Origin: Limnohabitans sp. T6-5 | GTDB lineage: Bacteria; Pseudomonadota; Gammaproteobacteria; Burkholderiales; Burkholderiaceae_C | Assembly (NCBI RefSeq): GCF_003063315.1 | Contig: NZ_NERV01000001.1 | Span: forward strand, 558,001 to 622,000 | Reading direction: 5' to 3' | Length of the DNA: 64,000 nt | Translations under genes and position numbers: made by a program | Part shown: piece by piece, positions 3,091 through 25,992 of the stretch | How positions within the stretch are numbered: the first letter of the stretch is position 1 | Layout: every line of letters starts with the position of its first letter | Notes under the pieces: generated by a model | The model's database searches: none | The model's input: only the letters and a program-made list of their open reading frames with translations | Told to the model about the DNA's origin: nothing

Positions 3091-4188
3091 TCAGCGGCTG
3101 ATGCGCCCCACCACGCCCTGCACCAAGTAGTTCATGTTCAGGATCTGGGCATCGCTCAGGCTTTGGCCTGCGGGCAAAACCAGTTTGCCTTCGTTGTCCG
3201 AGATCGGGCCAGCGAACGGCCGCAATTGGCCCGATCCGACAGCCTTTTGCTTGGCTGCAATTTCATCCTGAACCTTCTTGGGCACCTTGGAGCCAAAGTC
3301 GCCCACGCGGATCATGCCTTCCTTGACACCGCCCCACACGCTGCCTGAAGTCCAGGTGCCATTCATGGCCGCCTTGACGCGTGCGGTGTAGTAATCGCCC
3401 CACTGGTGGGTCACGGCGATGATTTGGGCATCCGGCCCGATCTTGCGCATGTCCGAGTGGTAAGCCACGGCCATCTTGCCGCGCTCTTGCGCCGCCGCCA
3501 TCACCGCGGTGGAGCCGGTGTGGAACGCGATCACATCCACATCCTGGTTGAACAATGCCATGGCCGCTTCGCGCTCTTTCGGTGGGTCAAACCAGGCGTT
3601 GAGCCAGACCACTTTGACAGTGGCTTTTGGGTTGACCGAGCGCATCCCAAGCGTGAAGGCATTGATGCCTTGCAGCACCTCGGGGATCGGGAAACCCGCC
3701 ACATAACCGGCCACGTTGGACTTCGTCATGCGCCCAGCGGCGATGCCTGCCAAATAGCGGCCTTCGTAATAGCGGGCGTTGGACGCGGCCACGTTGGGGG
3801 CCGTTTTGAAACCGGTGACCGACTCGAACTTCACATTTGGAAACTCTTTGGCCACCTTGAGCGTGGGCTCCATGTAACCAAAGCTGGGCGTGAAGATGAT
3901 CTGGTTGCCCTGTTGGGCCAGATCGCGGATCACGCGCTCCGCGTCAGCGCCCTCCGCCACATCGGCCACAAAGGTGGTCTTGACCTGATCGCCCAAAGCC
4001 CGCTCAACCGCCTTGCGGCCCTCGTCGTGCTGCTTGGTCCAGCCCGCCTCGGTGATGGGCGAGACATAAACAAAACCTGCCTTGATAGGCTCGGGGGATG
4101 GTTTGGGTGTTTGTGCTGAGATTTGGCCCTGTGCGGCCGAAAGAAAAAAGCAGGCGGCCACGAGCGTGGCAGCGAGGTTTTTATACAT
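3091..4188 (-). CDS. BMP family substrate-binding protein (nucleoside/purine-type ABC uptake)
   Basis: Periplasmic solute-binding protein of the basic membrane protein (BMP/PnrA) family, whose characterised members bind nucleosides or related purine ligands for an ABC importer. The 365-residue protein starts with a signal-peptide-like hydrophobic stretch (residues 4-24). The BMP signatures KAGFVYVSPITEAGWTKQHD, a GYMEP segment and YYEGRYLAGIAAGRM follow. No permease or ATPase gene adjoins it in this window, which is unusual for the family. Its position a few kilobases from purine catabolic genes suggests a purine ligand; that is inference. Confidence 0.85.
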   Translation of the reverse strand: MYKNLAATLVAACFFLSAAQGQISAQTPKPSPEPIKAGFVYVSPITEAGWTKQHDEGRKAVERALGDQVKTTFVADVAEGADAERVIRDLAQQGNQIIFTPSFGYMEPTLKVAKEFPNVKFESVTGFKTAPNVAASNARYYEGRYLAGIAAGRMTKSNVAGYVAGFPIPEVLQGINAFTLGMRSVNPKATVKVVWLNAWFDPPKEREAAMALFNQDVDVIAFHTGSTAVMAAAQERGKMAVAYHSDMRKIGPDAQIIAVTHQWGDYYTARVKAAMNGTWTSGSVWGGVKEGMIRVGDFGSKVPKKVQDEIAAKQKAVGSGQLRPFAGPISDNEGKLVLPAGQSLSDAQILNMNYLVQGVVGRISR

Positions 4189-4214
4189 GGTAGTCCTCTA
4201 CATGGCCCCGGGAT

Positions 4215-4250
4215 TGAAAAAACGAAGCCCGCCGGGGCAGCGGGCTTCGG
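4215..4250 (-). terminator. Rho-independent terminator after hom
   Basis: Read on the minus strand, a GAAGCCCGC / GCGGGCTTC stem (arms at 4224-4232 and 4240-4248) is followed by six T residues. It sits between the homoserine dehydrogenase stop and the BMP gene start, so it should end the hom transcript and separate the two genes. Confidence 0.85.
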
Positions 4251-4332
4251 GGTGGGATTCTAACTGGAGCATAAAGGCCTTGTTCAGCCCTTTCATTGGG
4301 CCTCATGCCGATCCATCACCCACAAGAACAGC

Positions 4333-5709
4333 TCAAGCCAAATCTTCCACCCGATAAATTGCAGCGACTGCGGGGCCGCCTGTCCCCTGAGACAGCAAGG
4401 CCAAAGCGCGGGTCAAATCGTCACCCCGCACGCTTGACGTCAAGGCCACCCAAGCCTTGCGGTGCGGTTGATCCGTGTGTGGCACTTGCAACATGTCTTG
4501 CACCTCTACGCCATGCGCCTGCAGCCACCTAGGCCATTCAGCTTGAAGCGCTGGGTCATCCACCCACTCAAACCGCAGGTAATGCCTGGAGGCCACCTGG
4601 CCAATGGGTTGGACGGGCCAGCGGCGAACCGCACTCGCTTTCACAGAACGGTGCGGCACTCGCAACGCCGCCCGCCCGGCGTCACCCGCAGCACCGCAAC
4701 GGGCCACATCCATCAAGTCAGCCACCACAGCAGACGCCGTGGTCTGCGAACCCGCACCGGCACCGTAATGAAAGGTCGGCCCTGCCGCATCGGTGTTCAC
4801 CCAGATGCCGTTCATTGAACCCTGCACCTGGGCCAGCCAATGCGACTGCGGCACTAGGGTCGGGTGCACCCGCACCTCGATGGCATCCGCCACTTGCCGG
4901 GCAATGCCCATCAATTTGATGCGGTAGCCCAGCGCTTGGGCACACACCATGTCATAAGGGTCCAAAGCCGTGATGCCCTGCGCGTGCACCTGACCAAACG
5001 GCACATCGGCCCCAAAAGCATTGGCCGCCAGCAAGGCGGTTTTGTGGGCGGCATCGATGCCCTCCACATCGAAAGACGGATCGGCCTCGGCATAACCCAG
5101 CGCAGTGGCCAGGCTCAAAGCCGCAGCAAAATCCAAGCCTTCGTCCTGCATTTTGGACAGGATGAAATTGCTCGTGCCGTTCACAACACCCACCACCTCG
5201 TGGATGCGGTTGGCCGCCAAACCCTCGCGCAAAGCCTTGATGATGGGGATGCTTACCGCCACAGCAGCTTCATAGGCCACCACCACGCCACAGGCATCTG
5301 CGGCGGCAAAAATTTCGGCCCCATGCTCGGCCAGCAAGGCCTTGTTGGCCGTGACCACATGCTTGCCTTGGGCGATGGCTTCCAGCACCAAGTCTTTGGC
5401 CAGACCCACACCGCCCATGACCTCCACCACCACATCGATGTCCGGGTGCCTCACCAAAACCCAGGGGTCACGCACCAAGGCCACATCGGGCCCGACCACC
5501 TGCGCGGCCTTGTGCAAGTTGCGCGCTGCGGCCATGACCAAGCGGATGCGCCGCCCGGCACGCTGGGCAATCAATTCGGCATTGCGTTCAAGCACTTGGC
5601 AAGTGCCAGAGCCGACCACACCGGTGCCAATCAAACCCACACGCAAAGCGCCAAGGCCTGAGGAATCCCAAGCGTGAGGCAAGACAGAGGGACAAGAATT
5701 TTGAAACAT
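4333..5709 (-). CDS. hom: Homoserine dehydrogenase
   Basis: NAD(P)-dependent reduction of aspartate semialdehyde to homoserine, the branch point to threonine and methionine. The protein is 458 residues if it starts at the ATG at 5709, which is preceded by GGAG. The Rossmann motif VGLIGTGVVGSGT lies near residue 25, TANKALLAEHG near 120, and the NGTSNFILSKMQ and AEADPSFDVEGIDAAHK signatures of the catalytic domain follow. A C-terminal domain resembling a degenerate ACT region completes it. The usual EAAVAGGIPI reads EAAVAVSIPI here. It stands alone, without thrB or thrC beside it. A Thr-rich leader peptide and hairpins upstream point to attenuation, so it is probably the threonine-regulated copy. 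Confidence 0.9.
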   Translation of the reverse strand: MFQNSCPSVLPHAWDSSGLGALRVGLIGTGVVGSGTCQVLERNAELIAQRAGRRIRLVMAAARNLHKAAQVVGPDVALVRDPWVLVRHPDIDVVVEVMGGVGLAKDLVLEAIAQGKHVVTANKALLAEHGAEIFAAADACGVVVAYEAAVAVSIPIIKALREGLAANRIHEVVGVVNGTSNFILSKMQDEGLDFAAALSLATALGYAEADPSFDVEGIDAAHKTALLAANAFGADVPFGQVHAQGITALDPYDMVCAQALGYRIKLMGIARQVADAIEVRVHPTLVPQSHWLAQVQGSMNGIWVNTDAAGPTFHYGAGAGSQTTASAVVADLMDVARCGAAGDAGRAALRVPHRSVKASAVRRWPVQPIGQVASRHYLRFEWVDDPALQAEWPRWLQAHGVEVQDMLQVPHTDQPHRKAWVALTSSVRGDDLTRALALLSQGTGGPAVAAIYRVEDLA

Positions 5710-17282: not shown

Positions 17283-17302
17283 GATTAATCGGGATCTGAC
17301 CC
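17283..17302 (-). repeat. GGGGTCAGATC-family hairpin repeat, copy 1
   Basis: Reads GATTAATCGGGATCTGACCC, the inverse of the family core GGGGTCAGATCCCGATTAAT. It lies in the xdhA upstream region and marks the left end of the accessory zone. Confidence 0.75.
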
Positions 17303-17411
17303 ACATGTCGCCATTGACTATCCAACGCATAGTGGCTCGTGAACAGATCTTGGTTCAACATGCACAAGGTAGTGCCATAGGGATCTCGCTCCATTTCATT
17401 TTTGACAAATT

Positions 17412-17682: not shown

Positions 17683-17740
17683 GATTAATTGGCGTCAGTT
17701 CCCCATGGCAGGATTAATTAGGGTCAGATCTTAATTAATT
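17683..17740 (+). repeat. GGGGTCAGATC-family repeats, copies 2 and 3 (divergent)
   Basis: Two degenerate copies lie side by side: GATTAATTGGCGTCAGTTCC at 17683-17702, and a longer one at 17713-17740 with the inner sequence AGGGTCAGATCTTAATTAAT. They precede the membrane protein gene at 17821. Confidence 0.65.
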
Positions 17741-17820
17741 TCTTCGCGCAGTAATTTGCTGCTGCACGTCGATCACTTTTACGTTGAGCATCACTACACA
17801 ACACAATTAAGGAGCTATAT

Positions 17821-18237
17821 ATGAGTAGCAAAATCAAACTAGCCTTGGTGTATTTAGGAGCGATCTTTGCGAGTATTGTTTTATTAGCGGCTGTTCAGTC
17901 GCTCGCAACAGGTGGGCCAGGTGGCGCAACAATTATTGGTTACGTTATGGTTTTTGGCTATTTCATTTTGAGATGGAAGCTTGTGGCAGGAAAAATTGTG
18001 ATAAGAGACAAATGGGTATCTGGCTTGCTTCGAGGTTTTGTCCTGATATGTGCATTTGTTATTTTTACCGGTGTCAGTGGTTTCCATGGGGGCAGCGCGG
18101 AAGGAAAAATGTTTGCCGCAGTTATTGCCGTGGTCCTGGCGATAGAAGCGGGGAGGCAAGTTAAGCGACTATCTATCTTCCCAAGTGGACAATACAGAAG
18201 AAACCCAGCAAACGATAAAACCGCCAGAGTCGAATAA
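17821..18237 (+). CDS. Hypothetical membrane protein
   Basis: A 138-residue protein with four hydrophobic stretches: about residues 6-26, 36-52, 69-86 and 96-112. A basic cytoplasmic tail (RQVKRLSIFPSGQYRRN) follows. The start ATG has AAGGAG seven bases upstream, which strongly supports translation. The DNA is AT-richer than the flanking purine genes, consistent with acquired origin. The next gene starts 18 bp downstream, so they probably form an operon. No family recognised. Confidence 0.7.
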   Translation: MSSKIKLALVYLGAIFASIVLLAAVQSLATGGPGGATIIGYVMVFGYFILRWKLVAGKIVIRDKWVSGLLRGFVLICAFVIFTGVSGFHGGSAEGKMFAAVIAVVLAIEAGRQVKRLSIFPSGQYRRNPANDKTARVE

Positions 18238-18255
18238 ATTTTCAGAGAGTCGCTA

Positions 18256-18885
18256 GTGTTTAAGAAAGTGTCGAGATGGTTTTGCAGACCGAGAGACCCT
18301 TCAGGCCACGTCTACTACGCACGGCTAAAGGCTCCGCAAGGTACCTTTTACAAACTCGGCTACACATCAAAAACCAGCTTAGTTGACCGCATGCGCTTCG
18401 CGCAGCTTGGTGATGAGAAGTTGATCGAATGTGAGCTCTTGTTCGCATTCCGAAAGGATGCGTGGGATGTCGAACAAACTCTCCTTGATCATTTTGATAA
18501 GTATCGAACGTTTGGAAAGTTCAGTAACGATCCTCAGATGCCCCTGGCGGGAAGGGGGCAGTCTGAACTATTCCGAGACGACATTCTCGGCTTAGACAGC
18601 GATTTATACCACCCATCTGATGAAGAAGCCATAGACCTCAAGAAAGAGTTTGCCGAAACTGGCGAAGGTTGTCTGCTGACTCTTATCGGTCTTGCGCTTG
18701 TGCCATTCACATTTGGTCTTTCTCTATTGTTCATTGCAGGTGGCTTATCTGGCGTCTTTGGAAACGGGGTCAAGGTACCGCCGCTAAATAAACGGCCTCA
18801 ACACCCTCCACACATCAAATCACTTATTGACTCACTGGTCCAAGCGCATTCAGCTGATATTGGCTTGGCGCAGCCTAACCCTTGA
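18256..18885 (+). CDS. GIY-YIG-like (T5orf172/MUG113-type) protein with hydrophobic segment
   Basis: A 209-residue protein. Residues 17-75 (HVYYARLKAPQGTFYKLGYT, RMRFAQLGDEKLIECELLF) follow the pattern of the T5orf172/MUG113 branch of GIY-YIG nucleases, with YY near the start, YKLGYT as the second motif strand and a conserved Arg (R56-R58). WDVEQTLLDHFDKYR and GQSELF complete the domain. Around residues 135-165 a hydrophobic, glycine-rich stretch (LIGLALVPFTFGLSLLFIAG) could be a membrane hairpin, unusual for a nuclease. It is cotranscribed with the membrane protein upstream. The catalytic glutamate is not certain. Confidence 0.6.
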   Translation: MFKKVSRWFCRPRDPSGHVYYARLKAPQGTFYKLGYTSKTSLVDRMRFAQLGDEKLIECELLFAFRKDAWDVEQTLLDHFDKYRTFGKFSNDPQMPLAGRGQSELFRDDILGLDSDLYHPSDEEAIDLKKEFAETGEGCLLTLIGLALVPFTFGLSLLFIAGGLSGVFGNGVKVPPLNKRPQHPPHIKSLIDSLVQAHSADIGLAQPNP

Positions 18886-19017
18886 TTAATTTGTCGTCCC
18901 TGCAAAACCCCTGCAACCCGCATGAATGCTCGTGATCTGGGTGAATCCGGATGGCCAGAACTCTCAAATATATATTCAATGGAGCCTGTTTTCTGGGAGT
19001 ATTTGAAAGCAGCGCCA

Positions 19018-19271
19018 TGACCGATGACTTTTTCCGTAACCGCTTGGATCAGATGATCGATTTACGCCACCCATTGGCGGTGCTGGCCAACCGCATGCCT
19101 TGGCAAGAAATCGAAGCATCTCTGGCCCAGTGCTGGCCTCGCCAAGTCAAGGCGGGCAAGAAGATCGAGGATCTGGACTTGTTTGGTCTGGTCTCTGTGG
19201 TTGCCAGTGTCAGCATTTACAAGGCGGGCCGACCTCGTCTGCCGACCCGTCAGATGGTGGCCCTGCTGCAG
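19018..19271 (+). pseudogene. IS5-type transposase, N-terminal remnant
   Basis: The frame starts MTDDFFRNRLDQMIDLRHPL, then VLANRMPWQEIEASLA and GRPRLPTRQMVALLQ. This is the start of IS5-family transposases of the MPW...IEA type, which usually exceed 300 residues. After 85 codons it runs straight into repeat copy 4 at 19272 and a nuclease fragment. The DDE domain is absent and no terminal inverted repeats are obvious. The break coincides exactly with the repeat. Confidence 0.75.
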
Positions 19272-19298
19272 TTAATTGGGGTCAGATCCCGATTAATT
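19272..19298 (+). repeat. GGGGTCAGATC-family repeat, copy 4
   Basis: Full-length copy with the core GGGGTCAGATCCCGATTAAT and TTAATT on the left. It abuts the truncated transposase on one side and a nuclease 3' fragment on the other. It is identical by eye to copy 7 (21398-21424). Confidence 0.8.
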
Positions 19299-19461
19299 GG
19301 AAGCTGCGTCTCCGTTGGGGCACGAAGCCGGAACTTTGGCATCTACCCCGTTTCGAAAGATCCAGGGGGCCACTGCAGGTGCGGCCCACAAACCCTGCGC
19401 CGCCGCCTTGGCCGATGCCTGCGCGGCCGCAAAAGCCGTGCGCTGGTGGCTGTCGATCTCG
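19299..19461 (-). pseudogene. Nuclease gene fragment A1 (3' end only)
   Basis: These 163 bp match 21425-21587, the 3' third of the intact nuclease gene, with one difference seen by eye (C at 19304). With the adjoining repeat, 191 bp are duplicated. The fragment encodes only the C-terminal approximately 55 residues and is cut at both ends by repeat copies 4 and 5. The near identity indicates a recent copying event. Confidence 0.85.
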
Positions 19462-19462
19462 G

Positions 19463-19490
19463 ATTAATTGGGGTCAGATACCGATTAATT
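19463..19490 (+). repeat. GGGGTCAGATC-family repeat, copy 5
   Basis: Core reads GGGGTCAGATACCGATTAAT, a one-base variant. It has the same orientation as copy 4 and separates nuclease fragments A1 and A2. Confidence 0.8.
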
Positions 19491-19494
19491 TTTA

Positions 19495-19667
19495 GCCCCA
19501 CTTCCGTTGCGTTGTAACCAAGGAGCCACAGCATTGGTGGCGCACATACCTTTTTGGCTTTAGGTCCGCTGCACTTGTCGTTGCACACGCTTGGCGATGC
19601 CGGATGTCGATTTCGCATTCGCAAGCTTCATGAAGACCAATCCGCACCCGACGCGACTGGGTTCAAT
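19495..19667 (-). pseudogene. Nuclease gene fragment A2 (degraded)
   Basis: This stretch aligns over its whole length with the 3' part of fragment B (21016-21225), for example CTTGGCGATGCCGGATGTCG against CTTGGCGTTGCCGGATGTCA, and GACGCGACT-GGTTCAA near its right end. It has many substitutions and small gaps and no open frame. It is the oldest-looking copy of the nuclease family in this array. Confidence 0.65.
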
Positions 19668-19696
19668 CAGGGTCTTCGCCCAGCTCGTCAGTGCGG

Positions 19697-20599
19697 TCAG
19701 GGTTGGCGTCGCGCATCCATTTCCCGAATCAGCGCACGGGCCTCATCCCCCTCAGGAATCGGCTGGCCGCTGTCGCGCCACTGAACGGCCGACTTGAAGC
19801 CATGTTCCTGCGCATGGCGCCGGAACCAAACGCCCTCGGGGTTGTGGCGCGTGATGCCGTCGAAGACCGTTGCCATTTGCTGGCTCTGCTCCAGGCCCAT
19901 GGCCAGCATCACTTGGTTGACCACCATCTTGTGCATGGCCAAGTGACTCGACGGCACACTGGCGATGCGACTGGCCAGTGCCATCGTGGCGGTTTCCAGT
20001 TCGCTCTGCGGCACCGCGTCGTTGGCCAAGCCCCAGGCCGCAGCGGTGCGCCCATCGATCACATTGCCGGTAAACATCATTTGCTTGGCCCGCGTGGGCC
20101 CCAGGCGGTAGGTCCACATGGCCGTGGTGGGGCAGCCCCAGACGCGGGTGGGCATGTAACCGATGCGGGCATCCTCGGCCATGACCAGCAAGTCGCAGCA
20201 CAGCGCGATGTCGCTGCCGCCGGCCACCGCCGCGCCATGCACCTTGGCAATGGTTGGTTTGGCGCTGCGCCACAGGCTCATGAAGTCCTCTGTGTTGCGC
20301 TTCATGTAGGCGTAGTCGACCATCGGGTCCCATGGCGTGCGCTCCTGCTGACAGGGGTGGTCGATGTCACCTTCTCCGAAAATGCTAAGGTCATAGCCGC
20401 CGGAAAAACCTTTGCCCGCCCCTTCAACCACGATGACGTGAATCGAGGGCTCGGCGTTCGCCCACTCCACTGCGGCGCGGATTTCCCGAGGCGTCTCTTC
20501 GTTGATGGCGTTCAGGCGCTCCGGCCGGTTGAGCAACAGGCGTGCCACGCGCGGGTTACCTTGGTCGGGTTGGATACTCAGAGTCGAAAAATCGGGCAT
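19697..20599 (-). CDS. Enoyl-CoA hydratase/isomerase (crotonase) family protein
   Basis: A 300-residue crotonase-fold enzyme acting on an acyl-CoA. The oxyanion-hole segments are [14 protein letters not shown] (about 64-77) and [20 protein letters not shown] (about 118-137). The first position usually held by Glu in hydratases (about residue 148) lies in [15 protein letters not shown], as in many crotonases of uncertain substrate. The ATG at 20599 has AGGAGAC upstream. It stands alone between nuclease remnants, so no pathway is suggested. Base composition is like the core genes. It may be an original resident gene of this interval. Confidence 0.85.
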
Positions 20600-20697
20600 G
20601 TTGTCTCCTGTTGGGAATGATGATGCCGGGTCGGTCACCTCAAGGCGAACGCGGCCAGCGGGATAACAGTGCGCTTGACTATAGTGCTTGGCATGAG

Positions 20698-20931
20698 CCT
20701 AGAAAACGCAGTTGACCGCTTTGAACCCGCAGGAAACCCTTACATATCCTGAACTCCGTGATCACGAAGACGCTCACCTTGTGGGTGATACCGCTACGCA
20801 CCCGATGGCACAGCCCTGGGGGGCACTGGCGGTGTTGCTCGTCGTTGCAGGGGTGCAGCCTGCGTCCTCCTCGCGCCTGGCCATTGCCCCCAGGACTGCA
20901 CCCTCGGGCGCGTTCAACTGCGTTTTCTAGG
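20698..20931. mobile_element. 234-bp MITE-like element with 18-bp perfect terminal inverted repeats
   Basis: CCTAGAAAACGCAGTTGA at 20698-20715 is repeated exactly in inverse at 20914-20931 (TCAACTGCGTTTTCTAGG), enclosing 198 bp without a credible gene. Perfect 18-bp ends are the hallmark of a non-autonomous IS derivative. I see no clear target duplication at the borders. The rest of 20600-20992 outside the element holds nothing I can recognise. Confidence 0.6.
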
Positions 20932-20992
20932 TTGAATTGGCACTGAATTTCGGGTGAACGGGGACAGGCACTGATTCGGCATTCATGAAAAC

Positions 20993-21014
20993 GGGGTCAG
21001 ATCAGCAATTAATT
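20993..21014 (+). repeat. GGGGTCAGATC-family repeat, copy 6 (variant)
   Basis: Reads GGGGTCAGATCAGCAATTAA at its core. It overlaps the stop codon of nuclease fragment B at 21009-21011. Confidence 0.7.
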
Positions 21015-21395
21015 TGAAGCCCCATCCCCGTTGGGGCATGAAGCGGGCACTTTGGCCTCCACCCCGTTGCGATGCACCCAAGGGGCAACTGCGGTGGTGG
21101 CCCACAAACCTTTTTTGACTGCATGGGCCGCTGCGTGTGCAGATGCATAAGCTTGGCGTTGCCGGATGTCAATTTCGCATTTGTAAGCTTCGTAATACCA
21201 AGCCGCACCTGACGCGACTTGGTTCAAGTTGACCTGACTGCAATCGGGCTTGAAAACGGTGCCCAACACCCGGTCGTACTGGTCTTTTCGGCATAAGTGA
21301 CGGTGACACTTTGACCCAAGACCATGGCGGCCAAATGTGCACGCGAAGATAGACCATAGGCTTGATCCAGTTCGGGGGCGTCGATGCTGGCCAGT
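21009..21395 (-). pseudogene. Nuclease gene fragment B (5'-truncated and frameshifted)
   Basis: From 21269 down to the stop at 21009 the minus strand encodes LGTVFKPDCSQVNLNQVASG, AAWYYEAYKCEIDIRQ and, at the C-terminus, VEAKVPASCPNGDGASN, closely matching the intact copies. Upstream the frame is lost: where copy D has TTTTT in GGTCTTTTTCGG, this copy has TTTT at about 21285, a one-base deletion. The 5' part ends abruptly at 21395 inside the SIDAPEL region, where repeat copy 7 starts. It cannot yield an active enzyme. Confidence 0.85.
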
Positions 21396-21397
21396 CG

Positions 21398-21424
21398 TTA
21401 ATTGGGGTCAGATCCCGATTAATT
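21398..21424 (+). repeat. GGGGTCAGATC-family repeat, copy 7
   Basis: Full copy identical to copy 4. It truncates fragment B on its left and supplies the TAA stop codon (21419-21421) of the intact nuclease gene on its right. Confidence 0.85.
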
Positions 21425-21994
21425 GGAAGGTGCGTCTCCGTTGGGGCACGAAGCCGGAACTTTGGCATCTACCCCGTTTCGAAAGATCCAGGGGGCCACT
21501 GCAGGTGCGGCCCACAAACCCTGCGCCGCCGCCTTGGCCGATGCCTGCGCGGCCGCAAAAGCCGTGCGCTGGTGGCTGTCGATCTCGCACTTGTAGGCCT
21601 CGTAATACCAGGCGGCACCGGAAGCCACTTGGCTCAAGTTCACGTTGCTGCAATCGGGCTTGAACACCGTGCCCAACACCCGGTCGTACTGGTCTTTTTG
21701 CGCATATGTGACGGTGACTTGCTGACCCAGTACCAGCGCCGACAAATGTTCGCGTGACTGCGCGCCATAAGCTTGCGCCAATTCCGGGGCGTCGATGCTG
21801 TCAAGCCGGATGGACTGACCGTTTACTGTGATCGTGTCGCCGTCGTGCACCGATGTGACTTTGCCAGCGATGCGCTGCGCCCCCGTGACCGCGCCACAAT
21901 AAGTCGCGCCCGAAACAGACTCCGGGGACACACCATCTCCGCCGCCGCAGGCAGCCAAAAACAAACACCAAAGAATTAATAAAACGCAGCGCAT
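21419..21994 (-). CDS. Staphylococcal-nuclease-like lipoprotein, copy C
   Basis: Predicted exported thermonuclease-type phosphodiesterase. The 191-residue protein has a lipoprotein signal MRCVLLILWCLFLAACGGG (Cys16), so it should be anchored in the outer or inner membrane facing the periplasm. The SNase active-site segments are VHDGDTITV (about 49-57), IRLDSIDAPELAQAYG (Arg, Asp and Glu of the catalytic site) and YDRVLG, which gives the second arginine. A family-specific tail, FRNGVDAKVPASCPNGDAPS, follows. The stop codon lies within repeat copy 7, and an inverted repeat copy lies 43 bp upstream of the ATG, so the gene is bracketed by inverted copies. Confidence 0.88.
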   Translation of the reverse strand: MRCVLLILWCLFLAACGGGDGVSPESVSGATYCGAVTGAQRIAGKVTSVHDGDTITVNGQSIRLDSIDAPELAQAYGAQSREHLSALVLGQQVTVTYAQKDQYDRVLGTVFKPDCSNVNLSQVASGAAWYYEAYKCEIDSHQRTAFAAAQASAKAAAQGLWAAPAVAPWIFRNGVDAKVPASCPNGDAPSN

Positions 21995-22036
21995 GCAGCA
22001 TGGTAATCAAGCCTGAACTGCTCACAAAGAAGAAAC

Positions 22037-22061
22037 AATCGGTATCTGACCCCAATTAATT
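22037..22061 (-). repeat. GGGGTCAGATC-family repeat, copy 8 (inverted)
   Basis: Reads ATCGGTATCTGACCCCAATT on the plus strand, the inverse of copies 4-7. It lies just upstream of nuclease copy C. Confidence 0.8.
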
Positions 22062-22210
22062 CTGTTGGAGTGTTATGAATAATTTTGAAGGGAAACAATG
22101 TTCACACACTGCTGCAGGCAGACCCAACTTTCCAGCTGGGGTAGTGGCTTAAGTTCGATGGATTGCCCCCCGCGTGGGCTTTTTTACGATTCACCTCCTA
22201 AATCGCGTGA

Positions 22211-22239
22211 TTGACAGCACGATCAACAACACCGAGAAT
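22211..22239 (+). promoter_or_regulatory. Putative promoter of the toxin-antitoxin pair
   Basis: TTGACA (22211-22216) and GAGAAT (22234-22239) are separated by 17 bp. The -35 box is consensus, the -10 box weak. The antitoxin starts at 22271. Confidence 0.45.
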
Positions 22240-22270
22240 CACACCCTCTTCCGTTCAATATCATGATGCC

Positions 22271-22546
22271 ATGACACAACTCACAGCCAACGACCTCAAA
22301 GTGCGCGGCATAGCCGCCATTGAATCGGTGCTGACCGATCACACCGAGGCCACCATCTCGGTACGTGGCAAAGATCGGTTTGTCGTCATGGACATGGCGC
22401 AATACCACTACCTGCGTGAATGTGAGCTTGAAGCTGCACTGATGCAAAGCAAAGCTGACGTTGCAGCAGGCCGATCTGTGCAAGAAAGCGCGCAAGACCA
22501 CATGGCACGCCTAGACGCTTTGCTCAACGACACAGCAGCACACTAA
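22271..22546 (+). CDS. Type II antitoxin, Phd/RelB-like
   Basis: A 91-residue acidic protein starting MTQLTANDLKVRGIAAIESV, with the middle segment EATISVRGKDRFVVMDMAQY. This is the DNA-binding, dimer-forming half of prevent-host-death/RelB antitoxins. A variable C-terminal half (ADVAAGRSVQESAQDHMARL) would wrap the toxin. The ATG at 22271 was chosen because upstream in-frame codons have no homology-like sequence. The toxin starts 4 bp after the stop, the usual tight arrangement, and the pair is expected to repress its own promoter. The two genes sit between nuclease copies C and D. Confidence 0.82.
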   Translation: MTQLTANDLKVRGIAAIESVLTDHTEATISVRGKDRFVVMDMAQYHYLRECELEAALMQSKADVAAGRSVQESAQDHMARLDALLNDTAAH

Positions 22547-22550
22547 GGCC

Positions 22551-22826
22551 ATGCCCTACACGCTGGTCATCACTGACAGCTACATGCGCCGTGCGGTGCG
22601 TTTTCTCAAACGCCACCCCGAGCTGCGCAACCCCTACGCCAAAACACTAGGGCTACTTGAGCTCAACCCACACCACCCGTCTTTGCGTTTACATGCCTTA
22701 TCGGGTCGTCTGGCAAGCTTGCACTCGGTATCCATCAACCTGTCATACCGCATCACCTTAGAGCTGATCATTCAAGACCAGCAGATCATTCTCGTCAATG
22801 TGGGCGATCACGACACGGTGTATTGA
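22551..22826 (+). CDS. Type II toxin, RelE/ParE/YafQ-like
   Basis: A 91-residue basic protein. The RelE-fold pattern is clear: MRRAVRFLKRHPELRNPYAK, then LNPHHPSLRLHALSGRLASL, then SVSINLSYRITLELIIQDQQ and a final VGDHDTVY. The H-x-L-x-G and the closing G-x-H-D-x-V-Y are typical of ribosome-dependent mRNA interferases of the YafQ type. Start codon selection is fixed by the 4-bp gap from the antitoxin. The target is inferred from the fold only. Confidence 0.85.
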   Translation: MPYTLVITDSYMRRAVRFLKRHPELRNPYAKTLGLLELNPHHPSLRLHALSGRLASLHSVSINLSYRITLELIIQDQQIILVNVGDHDTVY

Positions 22827-22844
22827 CTCACATGAATTGGCATG

Positions 22845-22867
22845 AATTGGGGTCAGATCCCAATTAA
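22845..22867 (+). repeat. GGGGTCAGATC-family repeat, copy 9
   Basis: Here the hairpin arms AATTGGG and CCCAATT pair perfectly around GTCAGAT. It supplies the TAA stop codon (22864-22866) of nuclease copy D. Confidence 0.8.
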
Positions 22868-23439
22868 CCACTCGGTCCATCCCCATTCGGACACGAAGCT
22901 GGAACTTTGGCATCCACCCCATTGCGAAAAACCCAGGGTGCCATCGCAGGCGCAGCCCACAGCCCACGCGACGATGCCTTGGCCGTGGTCTGTGCCGTTG
23001 CATACGCCATCCGCAGCTGGATGTCGATCTCACACTTGTAAGCCTCGTAATACCACGCGGCCCCCGAGGCCACTTGGCTCAAGTTCACGTTGCTGCAATC
23101 GGGTGTGAACACGGTGCCCAGCACCCGGTCATACTGGTCTTTTTCGGCGTAGGTGACGGTGACTTGCTGCCCCAGCACCAGCGCAGACAAATGGTCGCGT
23201 GACTGCGAACCGTAGGCCTGCGCCAATTCCGGGGCGTCAATGCTGCCCAGTCGGATGGACTCACCATTCACAGTGATGGTGTCGCCGTCGTGCACCGATG
23301 TGACCTTGCCTGCGATGCGCTGCGCACCTGAGGGCATGCCGCAATAGCTCGCACCTGAAGCCGACAGTGAAGAGATGCCATCACTTCCGCCACAGGCCGT
23401 CAAAAACAAACACAGAAAAATGAATGAAAAACGCAACAT
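22864..23439 (-). CDS. Staphylococcal-nuclease-like lipoprotein, copy D
   Basis: A second intact copy, also 191 residues from the ATG at 23439. The signal MLRFSFIFLCLFLTACGG has a good lipobox (LTAC). Active-site segments are VHDGDTITV, IRLGSIDAPELAQAYG and YDRVLG, and the tail is FRNGVDAKVPASCPNGDGPS. All catalytic residues expected for SNase (two Asp, Glu, two Arg) are present. The protein is roughly 85-90% like copy C by eye. An upstream in-frame start at 23481 is less likely because it would bury the signal peptide. The stop lies in repeat copy 9, as for copies B and C. Confidence 0.88.
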   Translation of the reverse strand: MLRFSFIFLCLFLTACGGSDGISSLSASGASYCGMPSGAQRIAGKVTSVHDGDTITVNGESIRLGSIDAPELAQAYGSQSRDHLSALVLGQQVTVTYAEKDQYDRVLGTVFTPDCSNVNLSQVASGAAWYYEAYKCEIDIQLRMAYATAQTTAKASSRGLWAAPAMAPWVFRNGVDAKVPASCPNGDGPSG

Positions 23440-25918: not shown

Positions 25919-25992
25919 TGTAGGAGCGGCGCCCCCGCCGCGAAGAATCCTCGCAGACCACGAGACATCGCCCCGAGGGCGGGGCTCCCACA
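25919..25992. repeat. REP-like inverted pair (REPIN-type)
   Basis: TGTAGGAGCGGCGCCCCCGC at 25919 and its mirror-type partner ending GGGGCTCCCACA at 25992 face each other across 24 bp. Both have an internal GC-rich hairpin. The pattern resembles the TGTRGGAGC REP family described in pseudomonads. It lies within the purine operon without blocking it. Confidence 0.65.

Follow-up and report, generated by a model that had tools for sequence, protein, structure and literature searches.

Transposase-associated hairpin repeats lie at junctions of intact and broken SNase-like gene copies in Limnohabitans sp. T6-5

Transposases of the RAYT type (REP-associated tyrosine transposases, REP standing for repetitive extragenic palindrome) and similar enzymes are widespread, and the reason for their retention by bacteria has long been a question. 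Passages of PMC6006769 call the functions of RAYTs largely unknown, and parts of PMC8266576 describe single-strand cutting and joining by E. coli TnpA_REP in vitro. As far as the excerpt of PMC3733652 goes, REPs lie less than 20 bp from the 3' ends of open reading frames (ORFs), and REPs with a GTAG tag supply stop codons. Here, we analyse a stretch of 64,000 nucleotides from the freshwater bacterium Limnohabitans sp. T6-5 (contig NZ_NERV01000001.1, positions 558,001 to 622,000; "the window" below means this whole stretch) in which five copies of a gene for an SNase-like (staphylococcal-nuclease-like) protein lie side by side among copies of a 28-nt hairpin repeat. Our best explanation, towards which we lean with modest confidence, is that the SNase gene is an old resident of this site, that it was copied locally with hairpins as boundaries, and that the locus would be a small and decayed case of the hairpin arrays that other genomes of the genus have.

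Two of the five SNase copies, C and D, are intact, and the other three (B, A2 and A1) are broken (Table 1). This agrees with a preliminary description of the locus, whose distinction between 191-aa genes and fragments is borne out by open frames, Pfam searches and alignments and which rightly had live copies stand beside dead ones. C and D match the Pfam family SNase (PF00565) at 2.9e-19 and 4.8e-19, respectively (69.9 and 69.2 bits; gathering score 21), and look maintained because the ratio of nonsynonymous to synonymous substitution rates (dN/dS) between them is 0.14 at 80.6% DNA identity; for C and its counterpart in the nearest relative (L053; loci and genomes carry our own L and G numbers), dN/dS is 0.127. 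The window copies share the domain match with staphylococcal-nuclease-like proteins (PF00565) and fall well short of the cut-offs of both named nuclease equivalogs that they matched. An alignment to staphylococcal nuclease places Arg, Glu and Arg of these copies at what we take to be the catalytic residues of that enzyme, and LAAC and LTAC near residue 16 of C and D give them a lipobox-like N-terminus, judged by eye only. Copy B consists of two pieces in different frames, one of them with a stop codon, and A2 is seen by DNA comparison, being absent from the protein-search matches that showed the other copies.

The hairpin reads TTAATTGGGGTCAGATCCCRATTGTTTT or close variants of it, and 93 copies from arrays give a 28-nt consensus, TTAATTGGGGTCAGATCCC[A/G]ATTGTTTT, that terminates in a T-rich stretch and has random-looking flanks. 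For its G-rich strand, the folding energy is -5.4 kcal/mol (z -2.9, DNA parameters). The motif GGGGWSAS of terminal inverted repeats (TIRs) is present in this consensus as GGGGTCAG, and neither of the tags of classical REPs, GTAG or CGTC, occurs in it. With at most 2 mismatches, the 17-base core is found at 18 places of the 4.17-Mb, 7-contig genome, of which 7 lie in 5.2 kb of the window (17685-22859), and the reversed core has 0 matches in the same genome; the clustering at this locus is therefore not due to chance. The exact hairpin pattern had 0 matches in viral contigs, and a literature search with the literal sequence gave only unrelated titles among the matches listed. Hairpin mapping confirms that the stop codons of B (21009), C (21419) and D (22864) each fall inside a hairpin copy and that C lies between two inverted copies, both as described before, although the hairpin of B is so degenerate that a search allowing 8 mismatches to the 27-mer misses it. 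A stop codon inside a repeat is not new in kind, since the GTAG REPs mentioned above supply stop codons as well.

The SNase gene occupies the same chromosomal site in relatives. Among the best 80 loci, the 18 closest named ones (L053-L070, 64-90% identical) invariably have it between hiuH and xdhA (18/18; the hiuH match of L060 is partial), and the short stretches of 24 same-genus loci (L133-L156, a set overlapping the first) each contain hiuH and/or xdhA; these two sets are the scope of the fixed site, and distant matches such as L157-L161 fall outside it. The gene thus seems to be a long-standing resident of the hiuH-xdhA interval, which forms one part of our best explanation. Copy number varies from one in 17 of the 18 stretches to two in L060 (strain PBBC1) and five in the window. 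A hairpin overlaps the SNase stop codon or begins at most 15 nt past it in 11/18 close relatives, another stands upstream of the gene in 5/18, and three of the other seven (L057, L061 and L065) have a decayed one by eye; the arrangement of a + and a - hairpin bracketing the gene recurs in L053, L054 and L055. The earlier suggestion that the repeat forms the 3' end of the gene thus holds for these 11 close orthologues but fails farther out, where the loci of 12 more distant homologues (L071-L082) all lack a hairpin. In L068-L070, a different hairpin-like stretch (GGGC...GCCC, by eye) follows the SNase stop codon in place of the GGGGTCAG hairpin. One of these loci, L069, is labelled as an Akkermansia muciniphila bin and has the hiuH-SNase-xdhA order with neighbour proteins 93-97% identical to those of the window; it is probably mislabelled.

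The hiuH-xdhA interval measures ~6.5 kb in the window as against ~0.8 kb in L053, and what fills it bears marks of copying at hairpins. B breaks off 0 nt from the hairpin of C, and A1 breaks off 2 nt from that of A2; with these junctions at hairpins, the hairpins appear to have been the breakpoints of local copying. A1 is evidently a fresh copy of the 3' end of C with its hairpin, and the block made up of C and both its hairpins aligns end to end with a hairpin-SNase-hairpin block of Limnohabitans sp. Jir72 (3930-4597, 89%). In this local sense, the preliminary description is supported on its point that gene and repeat are copied jointly. B shares 86-88% identity with the alleles of L056, L058 and L060 and 76% with C. 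A tree of SNase genes (built without A1 and A2) separates clade I (C, D, L053, L054, L055, L059 and L061) from clade II (B and 14 other rows) at a split of 100/100. C and D in one clade, B in the other and the near-identical A1 together suggest that two deep lineages of alleles are present in the interval in addition to recent local copies. We infer the route by which these alleles came in: since the SNase tree groups strains differently from the trees of xdhA and of hiuH+gntR, their exchange between strains is likely, though not proven.

The repeat can be assigned to a transposase. T6-5 itself has an intact tyrosine transposase gene (L014:1731-2426) between inverted repeat copies, and we extended this to 28 of 30 loci labelled Y1 (L011 of the same genome and L281-L307; the 143-aa proteins of L279 and L280, with IS200-like scores, were left out). 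HUH and Tyr motifs are present in 27 of these 28 loci, and 23 have a + hairpin to the left and a - hairpin to the right of the gene. The repeat is the terminal hairpin of an HUH tyrosine transposase of the RAYT/TIRYT type (TIRYT being the TIR-associated counterpart). The transposase scores 79.6 bits (2e-22) with the NCBIfam model REP_Tyr_transpos (REP-associated tyrosine transposase), just below the cut-off of 80, and the sole solved structure it matched is that of TnpA_REP (PDB 4er8, 3.2e-4). It usually comes as one copy per genome, given that Y1 matches in 85/90 genomes of the genus are single in 57 and two to four in 28, and that 5 genomes have none.

Far beyond the window, the core pattern is found in 84/90 genus genomes, with two matches of the reversed control in all of them together. 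We looked at arrays in a sample of 292 hairpins from 18 genomes, 12 of them with places listed and 6 picked for high counts (34 of 35 places in G308; several of the genomes are drafts or metagenome bins). Neighbouring hairpins 150-6000 bp apart point in the same direction in 64/72 cases (leaving out the bin of 780-820 bp) and those more than 6 kb apart in 17/40, and the 780-820 bp bin, which is the spacing across the transposase gene, consists of inverted +/- pairs in 14/16. Where copies stood less than 150 nt apart, only the first was kept; 16 clusters of at least 3 hairpins were then called, of which 15 are uniform in direction. In 11 of the 12 arrays (at least 3 hairpins each) taken from these clusters into a skew test, the pooled flanks are locally G-rich on the GGGGTCAG strand, as are 36/37 segments between hairpins and the flanks of 16 of all 19 loci tested; the two flanks of L330 and of L335 differ in skew sign. 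Agreement with the majority direction of genes is found in 6/12. The direction of arrays therefore follows GC skew and not gene direction, with the window as an exception. If skew marks the leading strand, this fits the strand-specific single-strand insertion described for IS200/IS605 in parts of PMC8266576. Genes and hairpins run the same way in L195 and L269 and opposite ways in L193, L267 and L270, stop codons are often at or just before hairpins, and several arrays stand beside genes that look by eye like surface-polysaccharide genes. Outside the genus, the core is present in 96 of 299 sampled family genomes (4 of the 299 belong to this genus), and among the matches listed there, same-direction neighbours make up 7/10 of those 150-6000 bp apart (760-860 bp left out), +/- pairs 11/11 of the 760-860 bp bin and +/- doublets 14/18 of pairs less than 150 bp apart.

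What lies between the hairpins of arrays is rich in families of toxin-antitoxin systems. For 99 array ORFs chosen by eye, Pfam gives HTH_3 (10), Gp49 (6), ParE (5), HI1420 antidote (4), UPF0175, AbiEii and Asn_synthase (3 each), and BrnT, BrnA, PIN, Phd, TumE and DUF218 (2 each). Of the 25 commonest families (out of 79), 8 are described as toxin, antitoxin or addiction, compared with 1 of 25 (AAA_21, whose description mentions AbiEii) for control ORFs (94 of 98 drawn, 4 of the longest having been dropped), the choice of which by codon score favours longer genes. When 30 array ORFs were scanned singly, 9 matched a toxin- or antitoxin-type family above cut-off, and the number rises to 20 with the addition of Gp49, HTH_3, UPF0175, DUF3368, DUF433, Fic and small nucleotidyltransferases, which we presume to be typical of toxin-antitoxin pairs. 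PADLOC adds AbiE, AbiL, PDC-S01, PDC-S70 and RmrA.

Some modules of this kind are common to different genomes as a whole, from hairpin to hairpin. A ParDE unit (named by Pfam) is 93% identical between L193:6357-7223 and L267:3797-2939, where each of the four ends has a hairpin 3 nt away, and a HigBA-like unit (named by eye) is 97% identical between L194:3734-4633 and L271:4645-3746 with ends 0, 1, 0 and 0 nt from hairpins, compared with 86% for a YdcF-like gene of the same two genomes (L198/L271). A second HigBA-like unit is shared at 97% by L195 and L196 in a different order of neighbours and with hairpins at 3/4 ends. A UPF0175/DUF3368 unit of L193 and L267, 98-99% identical in two pieces with the middle missing in L267, exceeds the 87.8-90.8% of the core regions compared for these genomes, and its order relative to ParDE is reversed between them. 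Altogether, 26 of the 92 ends of 23 between-genome segments lie at most 25 nt from a hairpin, and circularly shifted controls give 6.4 +/- 2.6 such ends (maximum 22; 0/2000 reach 26), segments of one locus or one genome pair not being independent of each other. 5'-truncated 3' ends of an asparagine-synthase gene (asnB), each with a hairpin after it, also recur between modules in L194, L197 and L265, like SNase copies A1 and B; integration of circles by single crossover, which we considered, may be the source of such 5'-truncated fragments. Another dispersed repeat of ~110 nt recurs many times in and around the L195 and L196 arrays and may also serve recombination.

From these observations, the course of events at the SNase locus can be sketched. 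A hairpin would have become fixed at the 3' end of the SNase gene, with the stop codon inside it or shortly before it. In T6-5, the interval would have grown by gaining alleles from both deep lineages and by local copying at hairpin breakpoints, the outcome being two live genes beside 5'-truncated corpses that start at a hairpin. The locus would be a reduced and decayed instance of what the genus has elsewhere, namely gene-spaced hairpins of one direction with accessory modules between them, and these modules, toxin-antitoxin or other, may be exchangeable as hairpin-to-hairpin units. The transposase might make or spread such units by cutting and joining single strands at the hairpins, as E. 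coli TnpA_REP does in vitro; that it mobilises them is our inference. A further-reaching claim, which we regard as rather doubtful, is that Limnohabitans has an integrase-free cassette system, formed by the 28-nt hairpin and a RAYT/TIRYT transposase that has been domesticated. In it, units of a hairpin and a gene, chiefly toxin-antitoxin and phage-defence modules, would be cut and joined single-stranded on one replication strand, lined up in same-direction arrays and exchanged between strains.

Several observations weigh against our best explanation. Many forks are weak in the SNase and flank trees, and in PBBC1 (L201) the second SNase copy is separated from the first by a partial hiuH and no hairpin, so that the gene can also be duplicated with no hairpin in between. 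In 27 loci beyond the 12 arrays, skew agreement is at chance (14/27), and the hairpins of the window, mostly +, oppose its skew of -0.047. Only 2/23 between-genome segments have all four ends at hairpins, and the remaining end of the HigBA-like unit of L196 is 722 nt from the nearest one. For the toxin-antitoxin pair of the window, 12 homologues (73-90%) have no hairpin in loci of ~3.5 kb (one of 2.9 kb), and in G312 a HigBA-like unit (93%) ends without hairpins, a match with 4 mismatches at a distance of 274 nt coming closest; modules thus exist without hairpins. Neither an excised circle nor transposition has been observed.

The strongest competitor, a serious if doubtful possibility, is that hairpins insert on their own and with strand bias into non-essential intergenic gaps, and that ordinary transfer brings in the toxin-antitoxin islands, whose reshuffling is due to homologous recombination between hairpins and other repeats, with no cassette mechanism at all. 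It gains from the typical location of hairpins at ORF 3' ends in other genomes (in the excerpt of Di Nocera 2013, PMC3733652), from the modules without hairpins and from the ~110-nt repeats that L195 and L196 also have in common. However, it leaves whole modules shared hairpin-to-hairpin in changed order to be explained, and the hairpin-less G312 unit still ends within ~7 nt of where L195 has its hairpins. Moreover, a repeat of 27 nt is short for efficient RecA exchange.

That the hairpins are merely transcription terminators or stabilisers of mRNA 3' ends, kept for ending genes, seems improbable. The T-rich end of the consensus and the many stop codons at or just before hairpins would suit such a role, but hairpins also stand upstream of SNase genes and on both sides of the transposase gene, and the strand found in the transcript of C folds poorly (-2.3 kcal/mol, z -0.4, DNA parameters only). 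Because gene and hairpin directions agree in some arrays and are opposed in others, we reject termination as the sole cause. Still less can be said for the SNase gene and two hairpins as a mobile unit, the proposal of the preliminary description that the gene travels with the repeat, which is now largely refuted and highly improbable: the end-to-end match of C with the Jir72 block, both hairpins included, and the same + and - bracket in L053, L054, L055 and around the transposase speak for it, but the gene keeps to one site in all 18 named loci and all of L133-L156, and a protein search of its own genome found no close copy outside the window, the sole other match being distant (33% identity), so a roaming SNase gene is rejected. 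A chromosomal integron with unusual attC sites is barely conceivable and was rejected despite a repeat for roughly every small gene or gene pair, uniform direction and toxin-antitoxin cargo, since an integrase (TIGR02249) above cut-off occurs in 2/90 genus genomes (G362 and G331), neither of them an array genome studied, G308 and G366 have sub-cut-off fragments only, and the repeat is a 28-nt hairpin flanking a transposase gene.

The remaining features of the window around the SNase copies are listed with them in Table 1. In addition, a 22-nt inverted repeat (95%; 20698-20719 and 20910-20931) surrounds ~190 nt between the enoyl-CoA hydratase/isomerase gene and B, resembling a miniature inverted-repeat transposable element. 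A 209-aa protein without Pfam or NCBIfam match is encoded at 18256-18885, with the IS5 fragment on one side and a small membrane-like protein on the other, and a GC-rich repeat at 25919-25992 is also found beside hairpins in L197 (84-85%).

Table 1. SNase copies, hairpins and neighbouring features, in window coordinates
Feature	Position	Strand	Remarks
Remnant hairpin (6 mismatches)	17283-17309	-	xdhA side; adjoining terminator-like stretch follows SNase in relatives
Degenerate hairpin (8 mismatches)	17685-17711	+	
Degenerate hairpin (4 mismatches)	17714-17740	+	
N-terminal fragment of IS5-family transposase	18951-19271	+	ends at hairpin; NCBIfam NF033578, 1.4e-12, partial, below whole-protein cut-off
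SNase copy A1 with its hairpin	19271-19461	-	last 56 residues; 99.5% DNA identity to C; 5' end 2 nt from next hairpin
Hairpin at 3' end of A1	19272-19298	+	identical to hairpin of C
Hairpin beside A2	19464-19490	+	
SNase remnant A2	19504-19666	-	163 nt; 79% identical to B
Enoyl-CoA hydratase/isomerase gene	19697-20605	-	also between SNase and xdhA in 4/18 relatives
SNase copy B	20993-21397 (about)	-	residues 61-191; degenerate 3' hairpin; 5' end abuts hairpin of C; allele clade II
Hairpin giving C its stop codon	21398-21424	+	
SNase copy C	21419-21994	-	intact, 191 aa; groups with L053 in allele clade I
Hairpin upstream of C	22033-22059	-	inverted relative to 3' hairpin of C
Antitoxin, weak Phd/YefM match	22274-22546	+	4.4e-4, below curated cut-off
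Toxin, weak YafQ-family match	22551-22826	+	2.9e-4, below curated cut-off
Hairpin giving D its stop codon	22843-22869	+	also follows toxin gene
SNase copy D	22864-23439	-	intact, 191 aa; adjoins hiuH as in relatives

If the cassette system were real, it would be a second, independent solution to the role of integrons and give a purpose to a transposase kept at about one per genome; toxin-antitoxin and defence islands would then have a transposase-based route beside that of integrons. With hairpins as cassette boundaries, the question of why bacteria keep RAYT-like enzymes would become directly testable. The modest reading, too, accounts for the five nuclease copies and offers a testable skew rule, to which the window is an exception. 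Among the matches listed, titles and the beginnings of abstracts contained nothing that joins RAYT or TIRYT repeats with arrays of toxin-antitoxin cassettes.

The closest described systems are TIRYT/TIRtrons and RAYT/REPtrons, which like the Limnohabitans system have a tyrosine HUH transposase gene between inverted palindromic repeats (passages of PMC3733652 and PMC6006769). In the former source, as excerpted, repeats are likewise dispersed as singles, dimers and groups, with REPs near ORF 3' ends, and the TIRs flanking some TIRYT genes have the GGGGWSAS motif seen here as GGGGTCAG. Same-direction arrays of accessory genes and module exchange at repeats, as in Limnohabitans, are in neither of these descriptions as far as the passages go, and the Limnohabitans hairpin differs from classical REPs in lacking their GTAG tag. 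IS200/IS605 elements resemble the Limnohabitans system in the superfamily of their HUH/Tyr enzyme, in having palindromic ends and in the expected strand bias (parts of PMC8266576). They differ in that the Limnohabitans transposase is usually one per genome and apart from the arrays, and in that no guide tetranucleotide was identified for it. With chromosomal integrons, the arrays share same-direction small genes, often of toxin-antitoxin type, folded repeats, and units that are shared and reordered between genomes; unlike them, the array genomes have no integrase above cut-off, and the Limnohabitans repeat is shorter and belongs to a transposase.

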